Assembly: GCF_005938105.1 (NCBI RefSeq) | Contig: NZ_VCPE01000008.1 | Location: 124,001-188,000, forward strand | From: Brucella haematophila | Lineage (GTDB): Bacteria > Pseudomonadota > Alphaproteobacteria > Rhizobiales > Rhizobiaceae | Length of the DNA: 64,000 nt | Direction of reading: 5' to 3' | Part shown: piece by piece, positions 62,048-63,433 of the stretch | How the letters are laid out: each line of letters starts with the position of its first letter | Position numbering within the stretch: the stretch's first letter is position 1 | The notes under the pieces: model-generated | Seen by the model: the letters and a program-made list of their open reading frames with translations, nothing else | Told to the model about the DNA's origin: nothing | The model's database searches: none | Program-made: the position numbers and the translations under genes

Positions 62048-63433
62048 TCACGCCTTGCCGAGACGCTTGCGCAATTCGGCATTCTCAGCGCGAAGCCTTG
62101 CAGCCAGTTCCTTGCGCAGCTTCAGATTTTCAGCTTCCAGCGCCACAAGCGCCTTCAGATCATCACCCACAGACGACTGGACCGTTGCCGGTGCTGCAGT
62201 TTTTCCAGCGGCGTTTTTCCAGTTGTAATAGGTCTGCTCGCTGACTTCAGCCTGCTGCAAAACGGCTTTCAGCGTGGTCTCCCCACTCTTCATCGCCTTT
62301 GCAACAGAAGCGAGAATGGAAGCGCGTTCAGCTGGAGAATATCTCTTTCTCGTGCCAGCAATAGGCGTTGCGGCAGTTACATCCGCCTTGTTTGCCTTCG
62401 CAGCAGGCTTTGCAACCACAGCCTTGGGCTCTGCTTTCTTGCGCGGCGCGCGGGTTTTCGGCTTGGCGCCCGCAGACTTCTCTACGAAGTACGGCTTGAG
62501 ATTGGCGCGAATGCGATCCAGAACCGTATCACCGGTCAGATCAGGCACAAAAGTCTTACCCGTTATCTGTTCGTAGGCCTGAACATAGACCTTCGACGTC
62601 TGTTCAATCAGATCGAGCGGGATTTCCGGGATCGGATCATTATAAGGATCGCAACGCTCGGTGACCCAAGCGCGCACAAAGTCCTTGTCAAAGCTTGCCG
62701 GACGGCTGCCTGCCGCAAAGCTCTCTTCATAGCTGTCGGCAATCCAGTAGCGGCTGGAATCTGGCGTATGGATTTCATCCGCAAGAATGATGCGACCGCT
62801 GGCGTCTGTCCCAAACTCGTATTTGGTGTCGACAAGGATCAATCCACGTTCAGCAGCACGCGCCTGTCCGCGCTCGAAAAGGGCCAGCGCATAACGCGAC
62901 ACTGTTTCCCATTGTTCGGCAGTCAGCAGACCCTGTTCAAGGATTTCCTCACCGGAAAGCGGCTCATCGTGCCCTCCGTCAAAAGCCTTGCTGGTCGGCG
63001 TGATGATTGGATGCGGCAGCTTTTCATTGTCCCTGAGACCATCGGGCAATATAACGCCATACATCTGGCGCTCACCCTTGCGGTATTTCGTCAGGATCGA
63101 CGTGCTGGTCGTTCCAGCGAGATAACCGCGGACAACCACCTCAACCGGCAGAATATTCAACCGCGTGCCGATGACGACATTCGGATCGGGATAAGCCAGA
63201 ACATGGTTCGGGCAGATATCAGCGGTTTCCTCGAACCAGTAGGACGCAGTCTGCGTCAAAACCTGACCTTTGAACGGGATCGACGTCAAAATGACATCGA
63301 AGGCGCTCAGCCGATCAGTCGAGATGATGATACGGCTGCCGTCTGGCAGGTCGTAGTTCTCACGAACCTTGCCGTTGTAGCGGTTCGGCAGTTCCGGGAT
63401 ATCAGCGCTGGGGAGAATGCGCAAAGTGCTCAT
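62048..63433 (-). CDS. purC: SAICAR synthetase (PurC) fused to a SyrB-like HTH/coiled-coil domain
   Basis: Residues 1 to about 316 form a complete SAICAR synthetase of the longer yeast Ade1-like type: YNGKVRENYDL, IISTDRLSAFDV, VRGYLAGT, LVDTKYEFG, ADEIHTPDSSRYW and KDFVRAWV. It joins CAIR and aspartate with ATP in purine synthesis. Residues about 317-361 are a Lys/Ala/Pro-rich linker. Residues about 364-410 (RKRYSPAERASILASVAKAM, EVSEQTYYNWK) look like the transposase/SyrB-type helix-turn-helix, and 424-459 form a Leu/Glu/Lys coiled coil (LEAENLKLRKELAARLRAENAELRKRLG). The frame is open throughout, so the fusion is real in this sequence. Ordinary enzymes of this type are about 300 residues. 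GGAAG precedes the ATG. Confidence 0.9.
   Translation of the reverse strand: MSTLRILPSADIPELPNRYNGKVRENYDLPDGSRIIISTDRLSAFDVILTSIPFKGQVLTQTASYWFEETADICPNHVLAYPDPNVVIGTRLNILPVEVVVRGYLAGTTSTSILTKYRKGERQMYGVILPDGLRDNEKLPHPIITPTSKAFDGGHDEPLSGEEILEQGLLTAEQWETVSRYALALFERGQARAAERGLILVDTKYEFGTDASGRIILADEIHTPDSSRYWIADSYEESFAAGSRPASFDKDFVRAWVTERCDPYNDPIPEIPLDLIEQTSKVYVQAYEQITGKTFVPDLTGDTVLDRIRANLKPYFVEKSAGAKPKTRAPRKKAEPKAVVAKPAAKANKADVTAATPIAGTRKRYSPAERASILASVAKAMKSGETTLKAVLQQAEVSEQTYYNWKNAAGKTAAPATVQSSVGDDLKALVALEAENLKLRKELAARLRAENAELRKRLGKA

Follow-up and report, generated by a model that had tools for sequence, protein, structure and literature searches.

In a stretch of 64,000 nucleotides from Brucella haematophila (contig NZ_VCPE01000008.1, positions 124,001 to 188,000; hereafter the window), one open frame joins a complete SAICAR (phosphoribosylaminoimidazole-succinocarboxamide) synthetase, PurC, to a tail of 145 residues made up of a linker, a helix-turn-helix (HTH) and a coiled coil. 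The fusion is real and is conserved in a small Ochrobactrum-type clade. The tail consists of an HTH and a coiled coil, as had been predicted from the DNA alone, and in this it resembles stand-alone genes of the same genus; the coordinates given in that original prediction, 62048-63433, proved exact. The gene, a second purC (purC2), is composed as follows:

62048..63433, minus strand: fused gene (SAICAR synthetase core, linker, HTH and coiled coil); ATG start, 461 amino acids, single open frame
62486..63433, minus strand: SAICAR synthetase core, residues 1-316, of the NF009251 type with PurC motifs present (NCBIfam match and alignments)
62351..62485, minus strand: Lys/Ala/Pro linker, residues 317-361, predicted to be disordered (composition and structure model)
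62201..62350, minus strand: HTH (HTH_Tnp_1), residues 362-411, including the SEQTYYNW segment also present in stand-alone proteins (Pfam and model)
62054..62167, minus strand: coiled-coil helix, residues 423-460 (structure models and tail-family alignment)

The fused protein and its distribution

Junction, locus and frame are the same in five of the 35 genomes of the genus, namely that of the window (G000) and G005, G023, G027 and G030, and the other four fused proteins are 89-98% identical to that of the window. Since the junction is common to five genomes and the frame is intact in all of them, an assembly join or a frameshift, the obvious artefacts that might have undone the original prediction, can be rejected. 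In the genomes searched, conservation is confined to one clade. A wider sample of orthologues was drawn from the best 80 of 246 related contig stretches. Here 76 of the 80 nearest loci are untailed and end 0-3 residues past position 316, whereas the protein of the window runs 145 residues further. The four fused loci (isolate AFS001111, Ochrobactrum teleogrylli LCB8, Ochrobactrum sp. Q0168 and sp. RH2CCR150) are not an independent sample because they come from the same assemblies as G027, G030, G023 and G005. At the level of the family a PurC2 match was found in 122 of 394 genomes (119 over the cut-off), with the tail only in G000 and G030.

Several further frames were considered as tailed and rejected. 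The long purC2 frames of G139, G253, G104 and G343 owe their length to open sequence upstream and lack the tail, those of G235 and G371 run over masked N and end 3 residues past position 316, and a match of G011 to residues 269-461, interrupted by two stops, belongs to a locus that carries a stand-alone gene. No other enzyme with this tail was found in a search of 199 family and 397 order genomes that scored the 18 and 9 top-ranking candidates of each genome, respectively. The frames of more than 300 amino acids listed in those searches were two fusions and one of G119 (384 amino acids), which contains the partner sequence described below together with an upstream open frame. Frames of 240-300 amino acids were read if their locus had been extracted; G227 (two frames), G083 C8, G197, G248 and G023 C1 lie outside this set.

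The enzyme core matches the PurC equivalog model NF009251 over residues 5-316 with 501 bits (cut-off 371) and the Pfam domain SAICAR_synt at residues 19-267 (8.4e-70, above the curated cut-off). On the fused protein NF010568 scores 265 bits (cut-off 251) and TIGR00081 scores 174.6, below its cut-off of 189.9. All seven PurC motifs sought are present (positions 21, 38, 94, 144, 200, 217 and 247) and align with the PurC chains 3r9r and 6yvq; these are the nearest solved chains together with the enzymes of 305-306 residues 1obg and 1a48, which we take to be yeast Ade1. Core positions were regarded as conserved if one residue was present in at least 97% of the 76 untailed orthologues. At only three of these 185 positions (9, 38 and 64) do all five fused proteins depart, and single ones do so at two more. 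Judged from these comparisons the core is intact and the enzyme probably active. Arg64, present in 76/76 untailed orthologues, is replaced by Ser in all five fused proteins.

The tail begins with a basic linker (11 Lys/Arg and 3 Asp/Glu, besides 18 Ala/Pro, in 45 residues), which is followed by HTH_Tnp_1 and a coiled coil, the architecture of SyrB-like proteins. HTH_Tnp_1 matches residues 361-444 (2.5e-10, above the curated cut-off), so the objection that the tail might resemble no HTH family falls away. A sequence search of the PDB with the tail found nothing at E up to 1, and Foldseek gave no match at E 0.001 or better. In the model of the full-length protein (mean predicted local distance difference test, pLDDT, 69.3) the linker at 320-362 has a pLDDT of about 30, the HTH helices occupy 367-382, 388-394 and 399-411, and one long helix extends from 423 to 460. 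Modelled alone (mean pLDDT 72.5, predicted template modelling score 0.36), the tail gives a disordered stretch, helices at 51-66, 72-78 and 83-96 and a long helix of 36 residues at 106-141 (tail numbering). Across 52 rows of the tail family 15 positions are invariant, 11 of them in the coil and four in the HTH (Q84, Y86, Y87 and W89 in tail numbering), and the SEQTYYNW recognition segment is retained in 5/5 fused tails. The open frame of the tail was kept in 50 of 20000 mononucleotide shuffles and is therefore more than a product of chance.

Purifying selection acts on the core and on the tail. Ratios of non-synonymous to synonymous substitution (dN/dS) were calculated for the ten overlapping pairs of the five fused genomes and amount to 0.024-0.069 for the core, 0.05-0.23 for the whole tail, 0.036-0.19 for its HTH half and 0.015-0.19 for HTH plus coiled coil, against 0.067-0.11 for four stand-alone genes of the most closely related group (group A, see below). 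Differences in HTH plus coil number 107, 91 and 346 at codon positions 1, 2 and 3, summed over the overlapping pairs; synonymous distances there reach 1.35, yet the frames are intact in 5/5 genomes. The dN/dS values and the dominance of third positions indicate that the tail is maintained as a protein, although less strictly than group A. In eight of the ten pairs the tail exceeds the core in synonymous distance (by up to 1.56 versus 0.55, for G000 and G023), and gene conversion with stand-alone copies is a possible cause.

Origin of the core, the tail and the locus

An ordinary short purC is present in all 35 genomes of the genus (as fragments in G008 and G022, genomes with a completeness of 69% and 72%), and the fused copy is additional to it in five. 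In the window's genome the ordinary gene encodes 254 amino acids, and the frames adjoining it read like what we take to be purS and purQ. This answers the question, raised with the original prediction, whether a second, unfused purC exists. The fused protein is thus not the only SAICAR synthetase of the cell, and a control of purine flux by it becomes less plausible. The original prediction had proposed that the putative DNA-binding tail could couple this flux to transcription or place the enzyme on the nucleoid. Distant plasmid-borne PurC proteins with 26% identity to the core occur on NZ_AP023260.1 (Mesorhizobium sp. L-2-11) and NZ_AP017989.1 (Aminobacter sp. SS-2016).

The nearest untailed relatives of the core come from Shinella; they are 86-91% identical and align end to end over residues 1-316. 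In a quick tree of 81 cores the five fused ones form one branch (support 95 in the Shimodaira-Hasegawa-like approximate likelihood ratio test) within a set of 20 rows, 12 of which are from Shinella. This Shinella-rich set, within which the forks are open, and the absence of the gene from 30 of the 35 genus genomes suggest that the core was gained by transfer, probably from some Shinella-like donor.

A different source is indicated for the tail. The window's genome contains three close stand-alone copies of it (67-77% identity) plus two matches at 33%, and compared with five stand-alone proteins of the genus the identity is 65-77%. Similarity at the DNA level to group A, the nearest stand-alone group, extends from residue 319, corresponding to about codon 16 of the stand-alone gene, to the last codons, and the DNA matches to two more distant copies stop 1 and 5 bases beyond the stop codon. 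A DNA tree was calculated from 32 tails, comprising the rows with an extracted locus and two more copies from the window's genome and excluding genus rows without a locus. In this tree the five fused tails lie on one side of a branch beside group A (support 85/68 for the fused set, not starred, and 92/87 for group A), while the fused set is unresolved in the protein tree. Because fused tails and fused cores each group in the trees, a single fusion event is likely though unproven, and the tail was probably captured once, in the ancestor of the small Ochrobactrum-type clade. In three of the fused genomes two stand-alone SyrB-like genes are situated 40-51 kb apart on one contig (G030:C42:131283 and 175177; G023:C1:2736 and 43245; G005:C10:2351 and 53316).

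The surroundings of the fused gene in the window contain the following features:

63526..63939, minus strand (same strand as the fused gene): HxlR-type regulator upstream of the fused gene (neighbour scan)
60762..61934, plus strand: HisC-like aminotransferase, converging neighbour (NF003496 above cut-off)
61961..61994, minus strand: terminator-like stem in the gap that separates the fused and aminotransferase genes; one site against a shuffle mean of 2.2, hence weak evidence

Beyond the HxlR-type regulator lies a divergent gene for a zinc-type dehydrogenase. No sigma-70-like promoter was found at 61850-64000 (shuffle mean 1.0). A Pfam scan of seven neighbours revealed neither a transposase nor a defence gene, and there was no purine gene among the neighbours scanned. 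A PADLOC match of the tail to DrmC (24-27 bits) is read as HTH resemblance, and the candidacy of the fusion as a defence gene was dropped. The block at 52458-61934 comprises a HutC-like GntR regulator, a zinc-type dehydrogenase, a second HisD-like gene, ABC (ATP-binding cassette) uptake genes, a short-chain dehydrogenase and the HisC-like aminotransferase; with relatives of HisD and HisC beside a transporter it is perhaps catabolic. DNA similar to the stretch with the short-chain dehydrogenase and the aminotransferase is also found in G034, G020, G018, G010 and G002, where it follows transporter frames and precedes other genes without purC2. As far as such comparisons go, the locus fits an insertion of purC2. 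The aminotransferase gene is missing beside the fused gene of G023 (L141 10516-10826) and present in the other four fused genomes. In nine of the 80 purC2 loci (L051, L063, L068, L069, L071, L086, L087, L089 and L092) the gene starts at most 600 bases from a contig end, as if a repeat were located upstream. Rfam detected no rRNA next to purC2 in the six of 80 loci analysed and only three tRNAs, all in L038.

The stand-alone SyrB-like genes and their partner

A partner protein, usually encoded beside the stand-alone SyrB-like genes or fused to them, is a new observation. Its sequence starts with a V.VE.K..R....SIWG..DL-like stretch and closes with a coiled coil resembling the one in the tail. 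We searched for it with a profile built from seven N-terminal stretches in loci that span about 3 kb; any partner encoded further away would be missed. In 21 of 24 genus loci it occupies a frame next to the stand-alone gene. The 25 loci of the wider family gave three outcomes: partner and HTH protein in the same frame (11 loci, in L151 only in part), partner in an adjacent frame (nine) and partner not found (five). These counts omit L143-L145, L167 and L168, which are repeat loci or second copies of a counted genome, and L026 (33% identity) had no frame over the threshold. SyrB-type proteins had been supposed to stand alone as a rule; the 11 shared frames show that tail-type proteins are exceptions at times. 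In the window's genome the partner accompanies two of the three stand-alone copies, the third being near a contig end. In none of the five loci of the purC2 fusion was a partner found beside the fused gene. Pfam returned no family over its cut-off for the two partner proteins scanned. Examples are:

L114 5417-5971: partner protein (window's genome)
L125 1905-2459: partner protein
L121 4542-5165: partner protein
L176 20411-21007: partner protein

Proteins that work together are often joined in natural fusions, and the occurrence of both in one frame therefore hints at a pairing of HTH protein and partner, possibly through their coils.

It may be asked how far the name SyrB is justified. Part of one report describes SyrB of S. 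meliloti as a negative regulator of SyrM (PMC9957244). That the tail is related to stand-alone genes of the genus is shown by sequence; the name is provisional, there being no SyrB-named model among the NCBIfam matches. Plasmid pSymA of S. meliloti 2011 carries a homologue (L176 21271-21738, 1.6e-48 with the family profile), again adjoined by the partner. The record has no gene table at that place, a look with regular expressions revealed no LysR-type gene (syrM) near this copy, and the published SyrB was not placed. Features under the plasmid matches, in the best 60 of 182 records, were either labelled transposase or unannotated.

Possible roles and comparison with known systems

What might a SAICAR synthetase gain from such a tail? 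We give about an even chance to an explanation by which the enzyme captured a resident SyrB-type HTH/zipper module and is tethered by it to the sites on DNA, and to the coiled-coil partners, that the stand-alone proteins use. A resident SyrB-like gene would have contributed its coding part, from about codon 16 to the stop, to the second purC, and the core would go on making SAICAR. The coiled coil may let the tail dimerise with another copy of itself, with SyrB-like proteins that stand alone or with the partner of these, and the conserved recognition segment may direct it to DNA sites that it would share with the stand-alone proteins. The enzyme would then be held on DNA or in a SyrB-like complex and could change repression there, perhaps in response to bound CAIR (carboxyaminoimidazole ribonucleotide), aspartate and ATP. 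The long disordered linker speaks for tethering rather than tight allostery. An improbable further reading is a purine-pathway trigger enzyme: the synthetase would enter the SyrB-like repressor complex at its operators by heterodimerisation of the coils, and the state of the CAIR/SAICAR step would alter transcription of genes outside purine synthesis.

The tail could instead be an oligomerisation module only, its coil dimerising or clustering an ordinary enzyme and the HTH being carried along passively with no role in DNA contact. This seems rather unlikely to us, even though the coil holds 11 of the 15 invariant positions of the tail family and is the part common to tail and partner proteins: the remaining four are in the HTH, whose half of the tail is itself under purifying selection (dN/dS 0.036-0.19) and keeps SEQTYYNW in every fused protein. 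Nor do we find it probable that purC2 simply became joined to a SyrB-like gene and that the tail is tolerated without any role. Such a passive fusion would explain why the tailed form is confined to one clade among the genomes searched, why the tail evolves faster than the core and why, with an ordinary purC present, the fused gene looks redundant. However, a useless tail should collect stops and frameshifts, whereas all five are intact and their differences are concentrated at third codon positions at synonymous distances of up to 1.35. Very unlikely, in our estimate, is a full trigger enzyme in which the PurC domain senses and the tail acts as a ligand-controlled repressor; transcription of specific genes would then be set by the state of the purine step. 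The core keeps its motifs, and the architecture is like that of enzymes that acquired a DNA-binding domain, as far as these are portrayed in part of one paper (PMC8249747). Yet a long linker predicted to be disordered offers no obvious allosteric path, a target site is not known and the scanned neighbours include no purine gene.

If the tail binds DNA, an enzyme of de novo purine biosynthesis joins a short list of enzymes with a DNA-binding domain of their own. The steps of the fusion are still readable in the lineage, since related genomes contain orthologues that lack the tail, relatives of the tail that stand alone, and the fused products. The results also point to a two-protein SyrB-like set in Rhizobiaceae, composed of an HTH/zipper protein and a zipper partner for which no Pfam family was found, and this set could render the old question of SyrB action testable. 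Among the papers listed in our searches of open PubMed Central none deals with a PurC-SyrB fusion, and sections of a review on regulation of the purine pathway present PurR regulators as separate proteins (PMC10912719).

HTH_Tnp_1 is also a domain of transposase subunits, among them subunit A of IS3-type elements. An active IS3 element was rejected, because the IS3 transposase model NF033516 scores far under its cut-off of 160 (with 21.9 bits on the full-length sequence and 25.1 bits on the tail) and none of the seven scanned neighbours is a transposase gene. With the stand-alone SyrB-like proteins of Rhizobiaceae the fused tail shares the basic linker, HTH_Tnp_1 and the coiled coil; it differs in that about the first 15 residues are absent, that it is attached to an enzyme and that no partner gene was found beside it. 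Trigger enzymes are enzymes with an acquired DNA-binding domain, and an excerpt on E. coli K-12 lists five: BirA, NadR, PepA, PutA and PyrH (PMC8249747). Like these, the protein described here combines a metabolic enzyme and a putative DNA-binding domain, recognised by sequence and model, in one chain. Unlike them, it belongs to another pathway step, carries another domain and coexists with an unfused enzyme. Its closest counterpart on the enzyme side is the PurC group of NF009251 (PRK12607), with which the core aligns end to end over residues 1-316, PurC motifs included, and from which it is set apart by its extension of 145 residues.
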